A DNA stretch of 64,000 nt from Alphaproteobacteria bacterium LSUCC0684. GTDB lineage: Bacteria; Pseudomonadota; Alphaproteobacteria; Puniceispirillales; UBA1172. Where the stretch lies: positions 1,388,638 through 1,452,637 of the forward strand of contig CP166130.1 of NCBI GenBank assembly GCA_041228335.1, written 5' to 3'. A program made the translations under genes and the position numbers. A model generated the notes under the pieces. The model searched no databases and had not been told where the DNA came from. It was given only the letters and a program-made list of their open reading frames with translations. Below, piece after piece: positions 21,718-31,518 of this stretch; positions within the stretch are counted from its first letter, which is position 1; each line of letters starts with the position of its first letter.

Positions 21718-22010
21718 TTTCACTATTTCACTTTTTTCTTTGATGCCTCCAGCAGGATACCCTAGGCTATATTTCTAACTTGACCCCATGGTGTGGTTTT
21801 CTCTCCCTCCGAACTGCACCGTTCTCATTTCCCCGGTGAGCTTGTGGGGGGCTTGACCGGGAGATGAAGCCTGGCCCAGCCAGGCTTCATTGCATCTGGT
21901 GGCATGCCTCCCTTCAAGATGAATTATCTTGACCCATCCGGAATTTTCACCCTTTACCTGCTGCATAAAGAGGATCACGATCAATTCTTAATGCAATAAA
22001 GAGGCGTGTG
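21718..22010. other. Divergent noncoding region with a perfect 12-bp hairpin
   Basis: This stretch between the regulator and the alcohol dehydrogenase has no credible gene. It holds a perfect stem-loop at 21864-21890: arm ATGAAGCCTGGC, loop CCA, arm GCCAGGCTTCAT. No T-tract follows on either strand, so it is not a standard terminator. It could be part of the dehydrogenase mRNA leader. No known riboswitch core was recognised. Confidence 0.45.
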
Positions 22011-23087
22011 ATGAAAGCTGCTGTCTGCCGTCAATTCGGCGCCCCCCTTACTCTTGAACCTCTCTCTCTTGCTGATCCCACAGGACATGAGCTCAAGATC
22101 CGCATAAAGGCCTGCGCGATCTGCCATAGCGATATCAGCTATATCAAGGGCTATTGGGGTGGCAATCTGCCCATGATCTTCGGCCATGAAGCAGCAGGGG
22201 TCATTGAGGCGGTGGGCGATGCCGTGACTGGCTTCAGACCGGGAGACCGTGTTGTCGTGACGTTGATGCGGTCTTGCGGCACCTGCCCGTCCTGCCTTGA
22301 CAACATGGAAGCGATCTGTGCAACCCCGCCAGCCATCACCAGCCCGAGCCACCAGGCCGCAAGCGAGGTGATACAGCCCTCGATGAACACAGGGGCTTTT
22401 GCCGAAGAAGTTCTGGTGCATGAGCGGCAATGTATCGCCATTCCGGATGATCTTGATTTTGAAACAGCCTCACTGCTGGGATGCGGCGTGATCACCGGGT
22501 TCGGGGCCGTATTCAGGGTAGGCAACGTCAAATCCGGGGATCGTGTTGGCGTCATCGGCAGCGGCGGGATCGGGATCAACGCCATTCAGGCGGCCCGGAT
22601 TGCCGGCGCATCGACCATCATCGCCATGGATGCGTCTTCAGCAAAACGTGACCTCGCCCTTGATCTCGGCGCAACGCATTTCCTGAACGTCCTCGAAGAT
22701 GATGTTGCCGTTGCCGTGGATGAAGCCACCGGCGGGGAAAAACTTGATATGGTTTTTGTTGCCGTGGGTGTGGCAAAGGCCATCGAAAATGCCCTGCCGC
22801 TGATCCGCCGTGCCGGCAAGGTGGTGATCCTCGGCATGCCTGCCTCCGATGATCTGGCCCGTATCGACGCCTCATCCCTTGCCAGCAGCGCCCAATGCAT
22901 CATCGGCACCAAGATGGGATCCGCCATGATCAGGGAAGACATTCCGCATTTGATCGGTCTCTTTCAGGAAGGGAAGATCGCCCTCGACCGTCTCATCAGT
23001 CACCGTTATCCTTTTGAGGATATCAACACCGCGATTGAAATGGCGGCTGACCCCTCCTCCGCAAGGGTGGTGCTGACCTTTGACTGA
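22011..23087 (+). CDS. Zinc-dependent alcohol dehydrogenase
   Basis: A 358-residue medium-chain dehydrogenase/reductase. Catalytic zinc ligands are Cys38 (AICHSD), His59-Glu60 (GHE) and a later Cys in LLGCGVITG. The structural zinc site is complete (Cys89, Cys92, Cys95, Cys103). The Rossmann loop GSGGIGINAIQAA binds NAD(P). The pattern is close to class III or aryl/alkyl alcohol dehydrogenases; the natural substrate is unknown. The ATG at 22011 is preferred to the GTG at 22008, with AGAGG six bases ahead. The enolase-superfamily gene follows after 23 bases and is probably in the same transcript. Confidence 0.9.
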   Translation: MKAAVCRQFGAPLTLEPLSLADPTGHELKIRIKACAICHSDISYIKGYWGGNLPMIFGHEAAGVIEAVGDAVTGFRPGDRVVVTLMRSCGTCPSCLDNMEAICATPPAITSPSHQAASEVIQPSMNTGAFAEEVLVHERQCIAIPDDLDFETASLLGCGVITGFGAVFRVGNVKSGDRVGVIGSGGIGINAIQAARIAGASTIIAMDASSAKRDLALDLGATHFLNVLEDDVAVAVDEATGGEKLDMVFVAVGVAKAIENALPLIRRAGKVVILGMPASDDLARIDASSLASSAQCIIGTKMGSAMIREDIPHLIGLFQEGKIALDRLISHRYPFEDINTAIEMAADPSSARVVLTFD

Positions 23088-23110
23088 AAAGGCTAGAAAA
23101 GAGGACGACC

Positions 23111-24310
23111 ATGAAACTTGACCAGCTTGAAACCTTTGTTGTCGGCAACCCGCCCCCGGGGCATGGCGGGCAGTATTTTCTCTTTGTCAAACTGGTTACT
23201 GCCTGCGGGATTGTCGGTTATGGAGAGATGTATACCGCCTCTTTCGGCCCCCAGACAATGATTGCCATGGCCGAAGATGTGTTTTCCCGTGATCTTGCCG
23301 GTGAAGATCCGTTCAATATCGAGCGCATGTGGCGACGTGTTTACAGCCGCGGGTATTCCTCACGTCCGGATATCTCCCTGATGGGGGTGATGAGCGGCCT
23401 TGAAATGGCCTGCTGGGATATTATCGGCAAGGCGCTTGAAAAACCTGTTCACGCCCTGATTGGCGGTAAACTCCATGAACGGCTGAGGAGTTATACCTAT
23501 ATCTATCCCGGGGAAGGCATGGATCCGGCCAGTTTCTATAATGATGCCGATGCTTCGGCGGAAATGGCCGCAAAATACCTCAAAGAAGGGTTCACGGCGC
23601 TAAAATTTGATCCGGCCGGGGCCTATACGATCCTGGACCCGCACATGCCGGAACTGGCGGATATCGAACGATCGGAAAACTTCCTCAAGAAATTGCGTCA
23701 GGCGGTGGGCAATGATGCTGATCTGCTGTTCGGCACCCATGGACAGTTTTCACCATCAGGCGCAAGGCGCATGGCGCGAATGATGGAGTTCTATGATCCG
23801 CTCTGGTTCGAGGAGCCGACCCCGCCGGAACGACCCGAGATCATGGCTGAAGTGGCCCGCGCCACTTCCATCCCCATCGCCACCGGCGAACGGCTGACGA
23901 CCAAATATGAATTCGCGCGTGTTCTTGAACTTGGCGCGGCGAATATCCTGCAGATGAATCTTGGCCGCGTCGGCGGCATCCTTGAAGCCAAGAAAATCGC
24001 CTCCATGGCCGAAGCCTTTTATGCCCATATCGCGCCCCATCTCTATTGTGGGCCGATCGTGGGGGCGGCAAATATTCAGGTATCTGCCGCCTCACCGAAC
24101 TTTCTTATTCTTGAATCAATCCGCAAATGGGAAGGGTTCCATCGCGACATCCTGACAAGCCCGATCCGTTGGGAAGATGGTTATGTTATCGTACCGGATG
24201 CCCCCGGGCTCGGCGTTGAGGTGAACGAGGACGTTGCCCGCGCCAACCCCTATACCGGCGACCGGCTTCATCTCACCTCAACCGAGCGGGATGATCCAAG
24301 ACAAGCCTAG
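23111..24310 (+). CDS. Mandelate racemase/muconate lactonizing family enzyme (sugar-acid dehydratase-like)
   Basis: A 399-residue enolase-superfamily protein with the capping domain (1-120) and barrel. By comparison with galactonate dehydratase, metal ligands Glu234 (FEEP) and Glu260 (TGER), catalytic His210 (GTHGQ) and His310 (APHLYCGPI) are present, and Lys165 lies in ALKFDP. The third metal carboxylate, Asp of the DFHGR motif in galactonate dehydratase, aligns with Gly208 here. Members dehydrate or epimerise acid sugars or related carboxylates; the substrate is not clear. Its stop codon overlaps the stop of the convergent GcvT-type gene in the sequence CTAG. The start ATG at 23111 follows GAGGACGACC. 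Confidence 0.85.
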   Translation: MKLDQLETFVVGNPPPGHGGQYFLFVKLVTACGIVGYGEMYTASFGPQTMIAMAEDVFSRDLAGEDPFNIERMWRRVYSRGYSSRPDISLMGVMSGLEMACWDIIGKALEKPVHALIGGKLHERLRSYTYIYPGEGMDPASFYNDADASAEMAAKYLKEGFTALKFDPAGAYTILDPHMPELADIERSENFLKKLRQAVGNDADLLFGTHGQFSPSGARRMARMMEFYDPLWFEEPTPPERPEIMAEVARATSIPIATGERLTTKYEFARVLELGAANILQMNLGRVGGILEAKKIASMAEAFYAHIAPHLYCGPIVGAANIQVSAASPNFLILESIRKWEGFHRDILTSPIRWEDGYVIVPDAPGLGVEVNEDVARANPYTGDRLHLTSTERDDPRQA

Positions 24311-26748
24311 CTGCGCATTCGGCTGGCATTGGCATCAAAGAGCGGCACAGGCTGCAGCCGGGCATCGAGCTCCTCCCCCAAGAGCTCGATTGTCCATCCG
24401 TCCTGCTCATCGGCAATCTCCTTGGGAACATACCCCATGGCAACAGACACACCTGATGCATGGGCAAACCCGCCGGAAGTGACCCAGCCGCAGACCTCGC
24501 CATTATGGGCAATAGGTTCATCCCCGATCGTATCTGCATCCCTGGCATCGACCACAAAGGCCCTCAGCCGCATCTTGCCGCCATGCTTCTTTTCAGCATG
24601 AGCACCGGCCTTGCCGATAAAATCCGTTTCCTTGTCATAGGCGACAAACCTTGAAAGCCCGCATTCCAGCGGCCCATAGACCGGCCGGAATTCTCTTGCC
24701 CATGATCCGAAATTCTTTTCAAGCCGGAGCGCGTTAAGTGCCCGCGCTCCGATCAGCCGGATATCGTGCTCGGCCCCGGCCGCCATGATCAGATCAAACA
24801 GATAGCGCTGGTATTCCGGCGTCACCCAGATTTCATAGCCGAGATCACCTGTATAGCTCATACGGCCCACGATGGCCGGTGCCATGCCGAGATGCAACTC
24901 CCGCACGTCCATGAAACGGAAGCCATCGTTCGACACATCCTCCCTCGTCAGCGAAGCCAGCACATCCCGCGCTTTCGGGCCGGCTATTGAAAGGCCGGTG
25001 AGGCTCAGGCCCATGGCCTCTACCTCCACCGAACCGTCCCCGGGCAGATGGTCGGTAAACCACCGCATATGATAGCTTTCAGCGATACCGGAACCAACGA
25101 TCAGGAAAGTATCCTCATCAAGACGGGCAAGCGAGAAATCGCCGATCACCTTGCCGTCATCTTTCAGCATCGGCGCCAGCGTCATCCGTCCCTCTTCGGG
25201 AATACGGCAGGCCAGCAGTTGATCAAGCCAGGCTTCCGCCCCTTCGCCGGTCACCATGTATTTGGCGAAGTTGGAAATCTCAAGGAGGCCAACCCCATCC
25301 CGTACCGCCCGGGCTTCATTGCCGACATGCTCGAAATCCACGCTGCGGCGCCAGCTGAATACATCCGCAAGCCCCTCCGGCGCAAACCAGAGCGCATGTT
25401 CAATACCAAAACTGACGCCAAACTGCGCCCCGGCATCTTTCAGCCGATCATAGATCGGGGTGGTCAACAGGGGGCGCGCCGCGGTCAGTTCTTCATTGGG
25501 ATAGCGAATAGAAAACCGACGGGAATAATTCTCCCTCACCTTGGCGTTGGTGTACTGCATTGAGGCATAATCGCCAAATCGGCTGATATCCATGGCCCAG
25601 ACGTCAAATTCAGGATCACCATTGATCATCCAGTTCGACAAGGCAAGGCCAACCCCGCCCCCCTGGCTGAACCCGGCCATCACGCCGCAGGCACACCAGA
25701 AATTCGTCAGCCCCTCAACCGGGCCGACCAGCGGATTGCCATCAGGGGCAAAGGTGAACGGGCCGTTGATGATCTGCCGGATACCGGCGTTTTCGAAAGC
25801 CGGGAAATGCTTGAAGCCGACTTCGAGGGATGGCGCGATACGGTCAATATCCGGTTCAAGCAATTCATGGCCGAACTCCCATGGCGTATTGTATTCAGAC
25901 CATGGGCGGCAGGCCTTTTCATAGGTACCCATGAGCATACCCCCCCGCTCCTGCCGGAGATAGAGCTCACCATCGAAATCAACCGCATGGATGACTTCTT
26001 TGCCTGTGGTGGCATTGATTTCCGCAACTTCGGGCATATCCTCGGTCAGAAGATACATATGCTCCATGGCGAGCACTGGCAGTTCCAGCCCGACCATGCG
26101 GCCGATTTCACGCGCCCAGAGCCCGCCACAATTAACGACATGTTCGGCAAGAACCTGGCCTTTGTCGGTTTCAACGCACCAGGTGCCATCGCTGTTCTGG
26201 GACAGTGATTCGACCTTGGTATGGGTGAAATAGCTGGCGCCATTCTTGCGTGCCGCCCTGGCATAGGCATGGGTGACGCCATAAGGATCAACATGGCCTT
26301 CGATCGGGTCATACATCGCCCCGGTAAAATGCTTCGGGTCCAGAAGCGGCATGAGTTTCGCGGCCTCATCAGGGGTGATCAGTTCAAGCCCTTTCATGCC
26401 GAGATACTTGCCCTTGGCGTAGACACCTTTCAGCCAGTCAAACCTTTCCTTTGTGGCCGCCAGCATCACCCCGCCGGTGATGTGCATGGTTATATCCTGA
26501 CCGGAAAGTTCTTCAATTTCATTATAAAGATCAATGGTATACTGCTGGAGTTTAGCAACATTCGGATCACCATTGATGGTGTGCATCCCCCCCGCTGCAT
26601 GCCAGGTGGAACCTGAAGTGAGCTCCGACCGCTCAAGCATCATGACATCTTTCCAGCCCAGTTTTGTCAGATGGAACAATACAGATGCTCCGACAACCCC
26701 GCCGCCGATCACCACCACCTGTGCTTGAGATTTCATTTGTTCAGCCAT
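24307..26748 (-). CDS. GcvT-type FAD oxidoreductase (dimethylglycine/sarcosine dehydrogenase-like)
   Basis: An 813-residue two-part enzyme. The N-terminal DAO domain has VVVIGGGVVGASV and His50 in SGSTWHAAGG, the residue that carries covalent FAD in dimethylglycine dehydrogenase. A middle FAO domain and a C-terminal GcvT-like folate-binding domain follow (GLSIAGPKARDVLASLT, then SYTGDLGYEIWV). Such enzymes oxidise N-methyl groups and pass the carbon to tetrahydrofolate. The ATG at 26748 has AGGAGG six bases ahead; an upstream in-frame start would add 43 unconserved residues. It follows the MttB-like gene after 28 bases, so the pair is probably one operon for methylated-amine breakdown. The exact substrate is inferred, not shown. 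Confidence 0.85.
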   Translation of the reverse strand: MAEQMKSQAQVVVIGGGVVGASVLFHLTKLGWKDVMMLERSELTSGSTWHAAGGMHTINGDPNVAKLQQYTIDLYNEIEELSGQDITMHITGGVMLAATKERFDWLKGVYAKGKYLGMKGLELITPDEAAKLMPLLDPKHFTGAMYDPIEGHVDPYGVTHAYARAARKNGASYFTHTKVESLSQNSDGTWCVETDKGQVLAEHVVNCGGLWAREIGRMVGLELPVLAMEHMYLLTEDMPEVAEINATTGKEVIHAVDFDGELYLRQERGGMLMGTYEKACRPWSEYNTPWEFGHELLEPDIDRIAPSLEVGFKHFPAFENAGIRQIINGPFTFAPDGNPLVGPVEGLTNFWCACGVMAGFSQGGGVGLALSNWMINGDPEFDVWAMDISRFGDYASMQYTNAKVRENYSRRFSIRYPNEELTAARPLLTTPIYDRLKDAGAQFGVSFGIEHALWFAPEGLADVFSWRRSVDFEHVGNEARAVRDGVGLLEISNFAKYMVTGEGAEAWLDQLLACRIPEEGRMTLAPMLKDDGKVIGDFSLARLDEDTFLIVGSGIAESYHMRWFTDHLPGDGSVEVEAMGLSLTGLSIAGPKARDVLASLTREDVSNDGFRFMDVRELHLGMAPAIVGRMSYTGDLGYEIWVTPEYQRYLFDLIMAAGAEHDIRLIGARALNALRLEKNFGSWAREFRPVYGPLECGLSRFVAYDKETDFIGKAGAHAEKKHGGKMRLRAFVVDARDADTIGDEPIAHNGEVCGWVTSGGFAHASGVSVAMGYVPKEIADEQDGWTIELLGEELDARLQPVPLFDANASRMRS

Positions 26749-26776
26749 CGCCGGCCTCCTTCCTGTTCTATAAGTC

Positions 26777-28333
26777 CTAAAAATCCGTTGGCGCGCCGCC
26801 CTCGGCCTTTCGCCGGGCAACAAAATCATTGAGTTCGTCGGCGATCGCTTCATCGAGCGGCGGCGGTGTAAATTCATCGAGAATGGATTTCATGATCCGG
26901 TTTGCGCGCTCTTCCACCCTCAGCGATCCGCTTTCCTCCCAGGTTTCAAAATTCCGCCAGTCGGAAAGAAACGGTGCGTAGAAAGCATCCTTGAAACGGC
27001 GCTGGGTATGTTCGGCGGCAAAAAAGTGACTCCCCGGCCCCACTTCACGTATCGCCTCAAACGCCATGGCATCATCAGAGACATCCAGCGGCGTATTGAG
27101 ATAGATGATCTGCTGAAGAACCTCACAATCCATGATCAGTTTCTCAAAACTTGCGCAGAGCCCGCCCTCCAGCCATCCGGCGGCGTGATACACCATATTG
27201 CAATGCCCGGAAGAAACCCCATTGAGCGACTGAACGCTCTCCCATACCGACTGCCCGTCCGGGGTATTGGCAGCGTTTGCGTTCGATCCCCGCCAGGGGA
27301 GGTTGTATTTGCGGGCAAGCTGGCCCGAGATCTGCATCGCCCGCACATATTCAGGCGTGCCGAAAGCCGGCGCCCCGGATTTCATATCGACATTTGATGT
27401 AAACGCCCCGTACACCACCGGTGTTCCTGGCCGTATCGCCTGAAGCAGCACAAGGGCAGCCAGAAATTCGGCATTCTGCTGCACCAGCGCCCCCACCACC
27501 GTGGCTGGCGCCATCGCCCCGGAAAGCGTGAACGGGCTGACAACGACCACCTGCCCGCGGCGGGCGGCGCGCATGGCACCATCGAGCATCGGCCAGTCAT
27601 GCTTGAGGGGGGATGAGGAATTGATATTGGTGAACATGCGCGGGCTGGCTTCAAATTCCGCCTCGGTAAGGCCGCCGGCAATGCGGACCATCTCCATCCC
27701 GTCTTCAATCCGCTCCGGGCCGAGCGAATAGGCATGGACAACCTTGTCGGTGAGGGTCAGCATGTCATGAAGCGCATCCAGATGCCGGATCGAGGCATGG
27801 ATATCCACCGGCTCAACCGGATAGCCGGCAACAAAATGAAGGCAGTTGAAAAACTGGTTTAGCCGCAGGAGATTCTGAAAATCAGCGCGTGTGCCGACAC
27901 GCCTGCCGCCATCGAGATCGCTGACATTGGGCGCTGACGAAACGGTCGAATACGCGATATGTCGGCCACCAAGATGAATTTTGTGCTTCGGATTTCTTGG
28001 GGTGACGGTGAAGATTGATGGCGCTTTGCTGATCGCATCCAGCACCAGCGCCCTGTCCATCCGGACGTTTTCGGTGTTGTCATCCACCTCACAGCCGATA
28101 TCTTTCAGATGCGATCTTGCTTCACTATTGAGAAAGAGAATACCGATCTCCTCCAGCACCCTGAGCGAGGTCAAATGGATGCGCTCAAGCGTTTCCTCAT
28201 TAGCAGGTTCAACCGGCGGATCGATATATTCAGGAATTGACCAGGCAAGCTGTTCGATCGCCGCCCTGGTGTCGGTCCTGCTTTGGGACCGGCCTGAACG
28301 TCGCCGGCCACGTTCTGATGCTGGTGCGTTCAT
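26777..28333 (-). CDS. MttB-superfamily (trimethylamine methyltransferase-like) protein
   Basis: A 518-residue (beta/alpha)8-barrel protein of the MttB superfamily, with no in-frame stop that would need pyrrolysine. Landmarks are an N-terminal VLEEIGILFLNSEARSHL segment, ISKAPSIFTVTPRNP, SPFTLSGAMAPATVVGAL, NAANTPDGQSVWES, and the cysteine/histidine part GHCNMVYHAAGWLEGG. Characterised non-pyrrolysine members (MtgB and relatives) move a methyl group from quaternary amines to a corrinoid protein. No corrinoid protein or reactivase gene is adjacent here. AAGGA lies eight bases before the ATG. It is first in an operon with the GcvT-type flavoprotein and divergent from the cobalamin genes. Confidence 0.87.
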   Translation of the reverse strand: MNAPASERGRRRSGRSQSRTDTRAAIEQLAWSIPEYIDPPVEPANEETLERIHLTSLRVLEEIGILFLNSEARSHLKDIGCEVDDNTENVRMDRALVLDAISKAPSIFTVTPRNPKHKIHLGGRHIAYSTVSSAPNVSDLDGGRRVGTRADFQNLLRLNQFFNCLHFVAGYPVEPVDIHASIRHLDALHDMLTLTDKVVHAYSLGPERIEDGMEMVRIAGGLTEAEFEASPRMFTNINSSSPLKHDWPMLDGAMRAARRGQVVVVSPFTLSGAMAPATVVGALVQQNAEFLAALVLLQAIRPGTPVVYGAFTSNVDMKSGAPAFGTPEYVRAMQISGQLARKYNLPWRGSNANAANTPDGQSVWESVQSLNGVSSGHCNMVYHAAGWLEGGLCASFEKLIMDCEVLQQIIYLNTPLDVSDDAMAFEAIREVGPGSHFFAAEHTQRRFKDAFYAPFLSDWRNFETWEESGSLRVEERANRIMKSILDEFTPPPLDEAIADELNDFVARRKAEGGAPTDF

Positions 28334-28492: not shown

Positions 28493-29017
28493 ATGCCTCT
28501 TCGATCCAGGAAAATCATGCTGGCCCTTGGTGGCGCCCGCTCCGGCAAGACAGCCTATGCCGAAGGTGAGGCGCTGGCGCTTGCCGGGGAATCTCGCCCC
28601 TTCTATCTTGCCACCGGCCAGGCTTTTGACGCGGAGATGGAAGCAAGAATATCCCGCCACCGCGAGTTGAGGCAGGATCGATTCACCACCATTGAAGAGC
28701 CGCTTGATATCGCATCAATCCTGAGGGGACAGGACGAAGGAAGTGTCATCCTTGTTGACAGTATCGGCGTCTGGATCACCAACCTGATGCTGGGCGAGAG
28801 CGACAGACCCGCGGCTTTTGACGCGTTCATCACCGCACTCGAAGAGACGAAAGCATCCGTGGTGATTGTCAGTGAGGAAACCGGCCTTGGCATCGTGCCT
28901 GAAAACAAAATGGCCAGAGATTTCCGTGATGATACAGGACTTCTCAACCAACGTGTCGCCGCCATGGCCGACAAGGTCGTCCTGATGGTAGCCGGTCTCC
29001 CCATGATCCTGAAATAA
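28493..29017 (+). CDS. cobU: Adenosylcobinamide kinase / cobinamide-phosphate guanylyltransferase
   Basis: CobU (CobP) phosphorylates adenosylcobinamide and attaches GMP, the first step of nucleotide-loop assembly of cobalamin. The 174-residue protein has the P-loop GGARSGKT (13-20), ATGQAFDAEMEARI(S)RH with the guanylylated-His region, a VDSIGVWITNLML segment and a C-terminal VSEETGLGIVPENKMAR stretch. Length is standard. It opens the plus-strand cluster cobU-cobT-cobS. The upstream 159 bases shared with the MttB-like gene show no clear B12-box, so cobalamin riboswitch control is not supported. Confidence 0.95.
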   Translation: MPLRSRKIMLALGGARSGKTAYAEGEALALAGESRPFYLATGQAFDAEMEARISRHRELRQDRFTTIEEPLDIASILRGQDEGSVILVDSIGVWITNLMLGESDRPAAFDAFITALEETKASVVIVSEETGLGIVPENKMARDFRDDTGLLNQRVAAMADKVVLMVAGLPMILK

Positions 29018-29065
29018 TTGCCGGGATATTGTGAAAATCGTGGCCAAAATTCGAGGCAGACACCC

Positions 29066-30079
29066 ATGACCATCTCTCTCCTTGACGTCGAATCCTATCA
29101 AAAAGCCATAAAGAGCCTGCCCGGACCAGATGGGAAGGCTGAAGATGCGGCACGACTGAGGCAGGGGCAATTGACCAAACCCCCCGGCTCCCTCGGGCGG
29201 CTTGAAGATATTGCTATCTGGATGGCCGGATGGCAGGGCCGGGAAAAGCCGCATCTCAACTCACCTTCCTGCCTGATTTTTGCAGGCAACCATGGGGTTG
29301 CGGCGCGCGGCGTTTCCGCCTTTCCGGCCGAAGTCACGGCCCAGATGGTAGGTAATTTCACCGCAGGCGGGGCCGCGATCAATCAGCTGACCCGTGCGGC
29401 GGGGATCAGGCTTGAGGTGACTGCACTGGAACTGGATCGCCCGACCCGGGATTTCACCGCTGAACCCGCGATGAGCACCGAAGAGACGCTTGCTGCCATG
29501 AAAACAGGTGCTGATGCCATCCCCGATGACGCCGATATCCTTCTTCTCGGTGAGATGGGAATAGCCAACACCACCGCCGCCGCGGCTGTTGCCGCCGCCT
29601 GCCTTGGGGGGGTGGCACGCGACTGGGTTGGCCCTGGCACCGGCCTTGATGCGGCTGGCGTAAACCATAAGGCGGATGTGGTCGAAGAGGCAATTGCCCT
29701 TCATTCGGATGCCCGGGATGGTTTTTCCATCCTTGCATGTCTTGGTGGACGCGAGATTGCCGCAATTGCTGGCGCTGTGCTGGCGGCCCGGCATCGCTCT
29801 CTTCCTGTCCTTCTTGATGGGTATATCAGCACCGCTTCGGTTCTGCCTCTTTACCTGGACAACCCTTCTATTCTGGACCATTGCCTGATCAGTCATCGAT
29901 CCGAGGAGCCGGGGCACCAGCGTATTCTTGCCAAAACCGGACTTGAGCCTATACTGGATCTCAGGCTTCGGCTTGGTGAAGGAAGCGGTGCTGCGACGGC
30001 GCTTCCCATTATCAGGGCCGCCGTGGAAGCCCATAGCGGCATGGCCACCTTTGCCGAAGCCGGTGTATCCGACGGATAG
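29066..30079 (+). CDS. cobT: Nicotinate-nucleotide-dimethylbenzimidazole phosphoribosyltransferase
   Basis: CobT makes alpha-ribazole phosphate from dimethylbenzimidazole and nicotinate mononucleotide for the lower ligand of cobalamin. The 337-residue protein begins LTKPPGSLGRLED near residue 38, has AGNHGVAARGVSAFP, LLLGEMGIANTTAAAA, and the catalytic glutamate in LGEGSGAA close to the C terminus. The ATG at 29066 is chosen because the product then begins like other CobT proteins; the upstream TTG at 29018 would overlap the intergenic region after cobU. It lies between cobU and cobS in the same direction. Confidence 0.95.
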   Translation: MTISLLDVESYQKAIKSLPGPDGKAEDAARLRQGQLTKPPGSLGRLEDIAIWMAGWQGREKPHLNSPSCLIFAGNHGVAARGVSAFPAEVTAQMVGNFTAGGAAINQLTRAAGIRLEVTALELDRPTRDFTAEPAMSTEETLAAMKTGADAIPDDADILLLGEMGIANTTAAAAVAAACLGGVARDWVGPGTGLDAAGVNHKADVVEEAIALHSDARDGFSILACLGGREIAAIAGAVLAARHRSLPVLLDGYISTASVLPLYLDNPSILDHCLISHRSEEPGHQRILAKTGLEPILDLRLRLGEGSGAATALPIIRAAVEAHSGMATFAEAGVSDG

Positions 30080-30092
30080 AAATGGAGGGATG

Positions 30093-30890
30093 ATGACCAG
30101 ATCCCAACCCCCTTCATCGGACTGGAGCAACATAACGCCCGGCCTTCTTTATCAGGATATCATGGCGGCATCGATGATCCTGACGCGGATACCGGTGACC
30201 TATGAATTTGAAACCGAACCGGACACGAAACGAAGCTATTGGGCTTTCCCCATCATCGGCGTTGGTGTTGCCGCCATCCCCGGGGCGATCGGCGCGTTGC
30301 TTGTCACTGCCGGTATTCCGCCGCTGGCATCAGCCATGCTGGCGCTGGGCGGCATCATGATACTGACAGGCGGGCTTCATCAGGACGGGCTTGCCGATGT
30401 CGCGGACGGGCTTGGCGGGCGTGATCCATCGCATCGGCTTCGAATCATGCGCGACAGCGCCACCGGCAGTTTCGGCACCCTTGCCTTGCTGATTTTCACC
30501 ATGACGGCCGCGGTATACCTTGCTGATCTCGGCAGCAACAGCCCATGGGGAATGCTCCATGCGCTGGTGGCAAGCGCGGCCCTCTCGCGGGCGATGATGG
30601 CGCTCCAGCGGGTTATGCGCTCACCTCCGGATGAGACGGGACTTGCTCATCTGACCGGTCAGCCCGACATGATCGTTGCAGCGACAAGCCTGCTGCTCGG
30701 TCTTCTTCTGGCAATTGTCTTCACCGGCATCAGCGCCGCGATTGCTGGGTTTCTGGCCGGCGTTGCGGTCACGCTGGCGCTTGGCTGGTTTCTTGAGAGG
30801 TGGATTGGCGGCGTCAATGGCGACGGGCTCGGCGCCACCCAGCAGATCAGCGAAACCGCAATCCTCATGACTTTCGTGATGATCGGCTGA
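30093..30890 (+). CDS. cobS: Adenosylcobinamide-GDP ribazoletransferase (cobalamin synthase)
   Basis: CobS joins adenosylcobinamide-GDP to alpha-ribazole at the inner membrane, giving adenosylcobalamin. The 265-residue protein has ILTRIPV at about residue 30, the Asp-rich motif GGLHQDGLADVADGLGG, a DSATGSFGTLALL helix and several further hydrophobic helices, matching the family. The ATG at 30093 was taken over 30090 because GGAGGG then stands about four bases ahead. It begins 13 bases after the cobT stop and is followed one base after its stop by a histidine phosphatase gene. Confidence 0.93.
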   Translation: MTRSQPPSSDWSNITPGLLYQDIMAASMILTRIPVTYEFETEPDTKRSYWAFPIIGVGVAAIPGAIGALLVTAGIPPLASAMLALGGIMILTGGLHQDGLADVADGLGGRDPSHRLRIMRDSATGSFGTLALLIFTMTAAVYLADLGSNSPWGMLHALVASAALSRAMMALQRVMRSPPDETGLAHLTGQPDMIVAATSLLLGLLLAIVFTGISAAIAGFLAGVAVTLALGWFLERWIGGVNGDGLGATQQISETAILMTFVMIG

Positions 30891-30891
30891 A

Positions 30892-31518
30892 ATGGCGGAG
30901 ATGGTGCGGCCACTTCACCTGACCCTTATCCGGCATGGCCCTTCGGTTCATGAAGAGGGATGCCTGCCGCCCGCCGATCCGGAGGCCGATATGTCGGATA
31001 TAGCGGCATTTGAACGTCTGGCCGGTTTGCTGCCTGCTGATGCGACCTGGTGGGTCAGCCCCCTCCGCCGGACACGCATGACCGCTGATGCCCTCATTGC
31101 GGCCGGGGCACATCCGGGTGAGATGATCACCGCCCCCATGCTCAAGGAGCAGGATTACGGAACCTGGCATGGACGACCCGTCGCTGAAATCTGGGAAGAG
31201 ATCAAGGATGGCCCGCTGACACCGTTCCATTTTCTGCATCCTTCGGTCACGCCCCCCGGTGGTGAAAGTTTTGACCAGCTATGGGCCCGGGTAGCTGAAC
31301 TTAGGCAATCCATCGAAAAAACCCGGGAAGATCACCTGGTGCTGATCGGCCATGCCATGATCTTCCGCGCCCTGATCGGTCAGGCGATGGGGCTTGATGC
31401 GGAACGCGCGCTTGCCTTCGGTATCAGCCCTCTTTCGATGAGCCGGATTACATTTATCCGCCCGCAAGGCGAGAGCAGGGGAAGCTGGATGCTTGATCAG
31501 CTGAATGTTCCGGCCTAG
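30892..31518 (+). CDS. Histidine phosphatase (CobC-like, probable alpha-ribazole phosphatase)
   Basis: A 208-residue phosphoglycerate-mutase-fold protein with the phosphohistidine motif LIRHGP at about residues 12-17, the second arginine in SPLRRTRMTAD, the acidic KEQDYGTWHG segment and the second histidine in LIGHAMIFRAL. In cobalamin clusters this family removes phosphate from alpha-ribazole phosphate. Its start lies one base after the cobS stop, which supports that role, though the family is broad. Its stop overlaps the stop of hpf on the other strand (CTAG). Confidence 0.85.
   Translation: MAEMVRPLHLTLIRHGPSVHEEGCLPPADPEADMSDIAAFERLAGLLPADATWWVSPLRRTRMTADALIAAGAHPGEMITAPMLKEQDYGTWHGRPVAEIWEEIKDGPLTPFHFLHPSVTPPGGESFDQLWARVAELRQSIEKTREDHLVLIGHAMIFRALIGQAMGLDAERALAFGISPLSMSRITFIRPQGESRGSWMLDQLNVPA

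Follow-up and report, generated by a model that had tools for sequence, protein, structure and literature searches.

Aerobic use of glycine betaine in Ruegeria pomeroyi requires MtgC and MtgD, as proteomics and knockouts have demonstrated, with SPO2108 and SPO2134 being proposed as MtgB1/B2 and up to seven PF06253 genes reported per genome (Mausz et al. 2025, PMC12478193). In Eubacterium limosum, according to excerpts of PMC12155760, the MttB-superfamily enzymes MtpB, MtcB and MtyB have one corrinoid protein, MtqC, in common, and MthB is the sixth member of the superfamily with an identified physiological substrate, the other known substrates bearing a carboxylic acid. Here, we analyse a gene pair of Alphaproteobacteria bacterium LSUCC0684, a member of SAR116 (Puniceispirillales), in which an MttB-family gene is followed by a gene for a dimethylglycine dehydrogenase (DMGDH)-like flavoprotein. 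The pair is located in a 64,000-nucleotide stretch of DNA (hereafter the window; C1:1388638-1452637) of the single-contig 2.70-Mb genome. We read it, with moderate confidence, as a module that demethylates, in two steps, an acidic (betaine-like) quaternary amine which is not glycine betaine.

The gene pair and its corrinoid partners

The upstream gene (26777-28333, reverse strand) encodes a 518-aa cobalamin-dependent methyltransferase of the MttB family (PF06253) without pyrrolysine, which was assigned to clade B, as defined below, on the basis of profile, tree, loop and structural model. The protein matched PF06253 at 665.7 bits (cut-off: 25; E value: 3.5e-200) over residues 11-513 and profile positions 1-500 of 500, and no in-frame stop was encountered when the frame was read along the gene. 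Its AlphaFold model (predicted local distance difference test score 89.2) has the triosephosphate isomerase (TIM) barrel fold of MttB and MtgB, and it matched the structures 4yyc (Z 55.7), 9yce (Z 54.9) and 7xcl (Z 49.3). The PDB entry 9yce is entitled 'Active site of MtgB', and 4yyc is an uncharacterised protein of Sinorhizobium meliloti with a bound ligand listed as unknown. A pyrrolysine-containing trimethylamine methyltransferase was considered and rejected: apart from the uninterrupted frame, Ala352 faces the modified residue X of Methanosarcina barkeri MttB (7xcl) in a pairwise alignment, a residue which we take to be pyrrolysine, and the TIGR02369 score was 299.9 bits with a cut-off of 525.

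The second gene (24307-26748, reverse strand) encodes an 813-aa flavoprotein with DAO, FAO_M, GCV_T and GCV_T_C domains and a likely start at MAEQ. The open reading frame (ORF) caller had positioned the start at 26877, inside the end of mttB (24307-26877, 856 aa). The true start is probably 26748, because the ATGGCTGAACAA ATG (MAEQ) is preceded by a GGAAGGAGG ribosome-binding site and lies 28 bp past the mttB stop on the same strand. The flavoprotein could be aligned over approximately 810 residues to the PDB structures 5l46 (579.7 bits) and 4p9s (573.4 bits), which are presumably human and rat DMGDH, and the aligned region includes an STWHAAG stretch that we assume to hold the His that binds flavin adenine dinucleotide (FAD). 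The initial annotation, which described an MttB-superfamily protein without pyrrolysine followed by a DMGDH-like enzyme with a folate domain, is therefore borne out by the end-to-end PF06253 match, the absence of a stop and the GCV_T domains. Its suggestion that the two enzymes remove methyl groups from a quaternary amine and feed them into folate-linked one-carbon metabolism agrees with the gene pair, whose predicted functions would fit an aerobic demethylation.

No corrinoid or reactivase gene adjoins the pair, as the initial annotation had correctly observed, and it had considered the methyl acceptor unclear. It had recommended a search of the genome for a corrinoid protein and RamA, and both were found in one cluster, approximately 460 kb from the pair, where an MtgC-like gene, a MetF2 candidate (299 aa), an MtgD-like gene and a RamA gene follow in this order on one strand (C1:1873.6-1878.7 kb). 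A plausible acceptor can thus be named, acting in trans as in R. pomeroyi (PMC12478193). The MtgC-like corrinoid protein (C1:1878 kb, 241 aa) scored 98 bits with PF02310, above the cut-off, and 215 bits with the MtgC model NF047996, under the cut-off of 370. The MtgD-like protein (299 aa) scored 378.4 bits with PRK07535 (cut-off: 259) and the RamA-like protein (685 aa) 292.4 bits with PF14574. We suggest MtgC as the partner in trans because a protein 77-81% identical to it was present in all seven roseobacter genomes chosen for carrying window-type MttB, a choice that makes this count silent on how frequent that type is.

In the proposed mechanism, the window MttB would transfer one N-methyl group to the Co(I) of MtgC, encoded at the distant locus, leaving a tertiary amine, as homology and gene content suggest. 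MtgD would hand the methyl group from methyl-MtgC to tetrahydrofolate (THF), giving methyl-THF, which the MetF2-like enzyme would oxidise, and RamA would keep the cobalt reduced by repairing Co(II). The adjacent flavoprotein, judging from its domains and pairing, would then use FAD to oxidise the tertiary amine to a secondary amine, and its GcvT domain would trap the one-carbon unit as methylene-THF. We favour this scheme because the homology to MttB and MtgB is full-length and extends to the fold, homologues of MtgC, MtgD and RamA are clustered, the two genes are 28 bp apart, the pair recurs in SAR116 and in five loci outside it, the two genes co-occur across genomes and cobUTSC genes adjoin them.

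Profile searches of the genome detected nine PF06253 genes, three B12-binding proteins and two RACo proteins. None of the three B12-binding proteins has the layout of MetH, and since there are only these three, MtgC may have a second role in methionine synthesis. Two PF02574 genes are candidates for MtgE. One B12-binding protein is encoded at 64 kb by a frame of 720 aa. Another, of 622 aa, is a URO-D and B12-binding fusion (approximately 944 kb), a layout which we take to be CmuA-like, and belongs to a second corrinoid cluster (C1:939-946 kb; L023:7242-13916) together with a pterin-binding protein, a RACo protein and a 638-aa ORF without a Pfam match. The third-position guanine-cytosine content of this cluster is below that of most other loci, and it is possibly a separate methyl-compound system.

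Paralogues, clade B and its active-site loop

A tree of 71 sequences was computed under LG+C20+F+G4, for which the program warned of long branches. Clade B (42 rows, support 100/100) includes the window MttB and its paralogue M1223, clade A (20 rows, 99/96) includes 4yyc and the paralogues M1848, M1653 and M8, and a third group of eight rows includes M2175, M210, M358 and M796. Scored against Desulfitobacterium hafniense MtgB (2qne), M1848 (C1:1848 kb) reached 443 bits, M8 360, M1653 312, the window MttB 300 and M1223 281; against 4yyc, the scores of M1848 and the window MttB were 751 and 343 bits, respectively. By MtgB score, M1848 is therefore the outlier and the window MttB ranks as ordinary among the paralogues. 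M1848 has a DMGDH neighbour of its own, D1850 (650 bits to 5l46), to which the window flavoprotein is only 40% identical, and a distance of 21-24 kb separates these two genes from the MtgC cluster. Because M1848 combines the higher score with this neighbour and this location, the window MttB is unlikely to serve as MtgB in this genome, and the best glycine-betaine candidate is M1848 with D1850 rather than the window pair.

The nine PF06253 genes of this genome compare with 16 in two of the 54 genomes of a Ruegeria search. Four of the seven roseobacters, each a Ruegeria, have a PF06253 gene from the class with lower scores at a distance of 26-28 kb from mtgC, and it fits SPO2134 in this distance only. 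The M358-type identity was checked only in L200 and L206, both among the other three roseobacters.

In the multiple alignment, one residue of the loop that holds pyrrolysine in MttB is missing from all 42 clade-B rows and from none of the 29 others. Four positions on, a Lys that is present in 29/29 other rows is replaced by Asn in 41 clade-B rows, including the window MttB (Asn356), and by Thr in the remaining one. D. hafniense MtgB, one of the 29, retains both the residue and the Lys; these are features of a characterised protein that are not known to be essential for activity. The sub-clade that includes the window MttB (30 rows) has invariant Asn136, Tyr171, His200 and Tyr202, the corresponding positions being Phe, Thr, Met and Ser in MtgB and in ten rows of the 4yyc/M1848 type. 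The AlphaFold model places His200 and Tyr202 at or just beyond the strand formed by residues 198-200, and the loop after the strand 347-350.

Docking predictions for D. hafniense MtgB, as given in excerpts of PMC6855144, brought Y94, N199, R309 and H345 into contact with glycine betaine. By alignment, three of these four docked contacts are kept in the window MttB (N238, R348 and H383 for N199, R309 and H345, respectively) and Y94 corresponds to Ser132; across clade B, Tyr never occurs here, 41 of the 42 rows having Ser or Ala and one having Gly. The window MttB may thus still bind an acidic quaternary amine, with a different methyl-cage side. We consider an acidic betaine to be the probable class of substrate because of the three retained docking-derived contacts, and glycine betaine itself to be disfavoured because of the separate clade, the lost loop residue, the Lys to Asn and Tyr94 to Ser132 replacements, and the better MtgB and DMGDH pair elsewhere in the genome.

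Among the remaining paralogues, M2175 (L018:8772-10508) and M210 (L019:8087-9649) are 90% identical at distant sites, a recent duplication. By eye, M210 adjoins a LysR-like gene and peptide-transporter-like ORFs. At the M2175 locus (C1:2167-2186 kb; L018), a DMGDH-like gene is accompanied by an aminotransferase, by a Rieske oxygenase that scored 161 bits with GbcA (cut-off: 670) and by an enolase resembling cis-3-hydroxyproline dehydratase (319.7 bits; cut-off: 500). Two more ORFs there have an enolase-like appearance, and the locus might be a cluster of the hydroxyproline-betaine type. In two loci of genus g4 (L228 and L238), the neighbours of a gene for window-type DMGDH include an M2175-type MttB, a ketopantoate-reductase-like gene and an APH-family kinase, the domains having been determined in L228 only; the anaerobic MthB system likewise has a choline kinase beside MttB, according to excerpts of PMC12155760.

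Recurrence and surroundings of the pair

Within the LSUCC0684 genome, five of the nine PF06253 genes lie less than 3 kb from a long GCV_T gene (an ORF of at least 800 aa), a number reached in 0 of 20,000 random placements, and seven of the nine long GCV_T genes, the DAO domain having been checked in only part of them, adjoin an MttB gene. Forty other SAR116 loci were retrieved, of which four carry a paralogue of 51-54% identity, each beside a DMGDH relative of 49-55%, and 36 carry window-type MttB. Among these 36, a DMGDH of at least 72% identity adjoins the MttB in 13 and cobU adjoins it in 18; one further DMGDH case was seen by eye at a contig end (L232). One locus, L087 (G078), has the same syntenic place (DMGDH 79%, cobUTSC), and its MttB is nested, with two other SAR116 rows, among Rhodobacteraceae sequences, which suggests that a copy of foreign origin, from within this clade, has replaced the resident gene in place.

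Across 136 genomes of the order, window-type MttB was counted in at least 49, DMGDH (at least 72% identity) in at least 31 and both in at least 28 (Fisher p 1e-12, uncorrected for genome relatedness). These sets were read by eye, 7 of the 49 MttB genomes are partial matches and the genes are close to the ends of some draft contigs. The DMGDH orthologue is sited elsewhere in about half of the genomes with both; in g14, it lies beside a 594-aa ORF and ORFs that appear by eye to be transporter-like. Outside SAR116, loci were taken from the best 80 matches in species genomes, many of which are Rhodobacteraceae and some of which, labelled only 'Alphaproteobacteria', may be SAR116. Here the two genes lie within 3 kb on one strand in five of at most 75 loci (L116, L122, L129, L131 and L141), with one gene between them in L122 and L129. 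These loci belong to Pontivivens insulae, Oricola indica, a Rhodobacteraceae metagenome-assembled genome (MAG) and two Rhizobiaceae-group MAGs, and their flanks otherwise differ. The pairing is real and selected, yet optional.

Divergent from the window mttB, on the forward strand, are genes for the cobinamide kinase CobU (28493-29017; PF02283, E value 1.4e-53), CobT (29018-30079; exceeding the PRK00105 and TIGR03160 cut-offs), a CobS-like ORF whose true start is probably internal (29928-30890; 153.8 bits, below the 322-bit cut-off) and a CobC-like phosphatase (30892-31518; TIGR03162, 70.6 bits, below the 162.9-bit cut-off). They likely constitute an operon for the B12 nucleotide loop that many SAR116 genomes have retained beside window-type mttB. 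A riboswitch for cobalamin in the mttB-cobU interval was looked for and rejected, the Rfam search at gathering thresholds having returned only a tRNA in the window. On the other side of the pair (22008-24310), an enolase-superfamily gene and a zinc-dependent alcohol dehydrogenase gene are conserved next to it in L057 and L058, two genomes from the same family, and an enolase homologue (61%) also occurs in L116. They resemble a sugar-acid dehydratase and an alcohol dehydrogenase, both under the cut-offs, and were not counted in the module.

The neighbouring genes vary by lineage and do not reveal the substrate. Directly upstream of window-type MttB, L103 and L105 have kbl-tdh and L102 has tdh; in L082, an aromatic-amino-acid lyase and a Rieske oxygenase are nearby. 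DddP-like M24 enzymes (cut-off: 600 bits) accompany window-type MttB in L129 (300.6 bits) and L110 (428.7 bits), and an M1223-type gene in L098 (310.7 bits), from which a zwitterion resembling dimethylsulfoniopropionate (DMSP) or betaine may be guessed as the substrate. In L122, a DMSP_lyase-like cupin matches PF16867 (41.3 bits; cut-off: 27) and no NCBIfam model. A cluster with a HAD-containing ORF is found in 56 non-SAR116 loci, the HAD domain having been checked in L097 only. In that locus, on a plasmid of Phaeobacter sp. G2, the window-type MttB (61.7% identical) stands between a HAD hydrolase and a haem-nitric-oxide-binding protein, with a carnitine 3-dehydrogenase approximately 10 kb away. 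No paper giving a function for clade B was found in the open-licence PMC literature, which was searched mostly at listing level.

Competing explanations and described systems

Several observations weigh against a dedicated two-step module for an amine other than glycine betaine. The DMGDH gene is not beside window-type MttB in 23 of the 36 other SAR116 loci, in 11 genomes of genus g18 the MttB is present with no orthologous DMGDH among the matches listed, in g4 the DMGDH lies away from window-type MttB and near another MttB paralogue in two of four loci (L228 and L238), and proximity outside SAR116 is rare. The MetF2 candidate, located between mtgC and mtgD, scored 23.0 bits with PF02219 (cut-off: 24), and DUF1638 (PF07796), the companion of RamA in Ruegeria, had no match in the genome at E <= 0.001. 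The phylogeny of the MttB protein that the initial annotation had recommended did resolve a separate clade B; D. hafniense MtgB, the reference for glycine betaine, fell outside both A and B on a branch flagged as long, so that the tree alone gives no verdict as to which clade is nearer. Furthermore, glycine betaine could still be the substrate of an enzyme with a loop remodelled in this way.

The tree, in which D. hafniense MtgB is no nearer to clade A than to clade B, also favours a second module leading from glycine betaine through dimethylglycine to sarcosine, in which the window pair would be an isozyme of M1848 and D1850 and the loop change neutral. The 580-bit score of the window flavoprotein to a PDB dimethylglycine dehydrogenase and the conservation of three of the four contacts from the docking excerpts would be expected of such an isozyme, and SPO2108 and SPO2134 are more abundant on N-osmolytes in R. 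pomeroyi (PMC12478193), where SPO2108 could belong to clade B. Nevertheless, we regard this isozyme as rather unlikely, given the 300 bits of the window MttB to MtgB against 443 for M1848, a clade separate from that of M1848, the loss of the Tyr94 equivalent together with the deletion and the Lys to Asn change, and a better-scoring pair already in the genome. The two genes could also be neighbours without a common pathway, MttB acting on one substrate and the flavoprotein on a different tertiary or secondary amine; the g14 and g4 arrangements, with the DMGDH orthologue elsewhere in about half of the genomes that have both genes, and the eleven listed g18 cases of MttB alone would suit this. 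The 28-bp spacing, the repeated closeness of the two genes in other families, where the flanks differ, and the four other MttB genes of the genome that adjoin long GCV_T genes speak for a shared role, and we therefore hold separate pathways to be distinctly improbable. Least probable by far is that the window MttB works with the second corrinoid set rather than with MtgC: that locus does encode a B12-binding protein with a URO-D domain, a pterin-binding protein and RACo, but the corrinoid domain there is part of a fusion with a URO-D-type domain of its own, and MtgC accompanies window-type MttB in 7/7 roseobacters, in which the second set was not looked for.

Beyond the two-step module that we prefer, a wider proposal can be put forward tentatively, as something that is possible but short of likely. 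Clade B would be a second major family of aerobic B12-dependent demethylases, widespread among roseobacters and SAR116, and its re-cut loop would be specific for a quaternary (or sulfonium) zwitterion that is common in the sea and new to methyltransferases; some lineages would add a DMGDH paralogue dedicated to this route and a lyase, DddP-like or other. Because window-type MttB is found in many genomes of the SAR116 order and of Rhodobacteraceae, the substrate of clade B could account for a sizeable part of the cycling of dissolved organic nitrogen (or sulphur) in the sea and of the demand for B12. Nine MttB paralogues with one MtgC in a single genome make a direct test of substrates feasible.

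The initial annotation had presented the pair as the best candidate in the window for an undescribed system, a claim overtaken by the description of the aerobic MtgBCD route in 2025 (PMC12478193). The general mechanism is already known and the clade-B enzyme, with its distinctive loop, is an uncharacterised variant. The window system resembles that of R. pomeroyi DSS-3 (PMC12478193) in combining a PF06253 methyltransferase with MtgC, MtgD and RamA in trans, in the presence of several PF06253 paralogues in an aerobic marine genome and in further demethylation downstream, and differs in that no DUF1638 was found in its genome. The flavoprotein resembles mitochondrial DMGDH (5l46, 4p9s) along its approximately 810 aligned residues, but is bacterial and encoded beside an MttB gene. 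E. limosum, as described in excerpts of PMC12155760, similarly has several MttB paralogues per genome, serving different acidic quaternary amines (MtpB, MtcB, MtyB and MthB for proline betaine, carnitine, gamma-butyrobetaine and phosphocholine, respectively), the comparison being one of descriptions; it is, however, an anaerobic acetogen, and those excerpts do not mention a flavoprotein partner. With D. hafniense MtgB (2qne, 9yce), the window MttB has in common three of the four contacts predicted by docking and the fold (Z 54.9, root-mean-square deviation 1.9 over 472 residues), and is set apart from it by a sequence identity of 34%, by Ser132 in place of Tyr94 and by the deleted loop residue with Asn356 in place of Lys.

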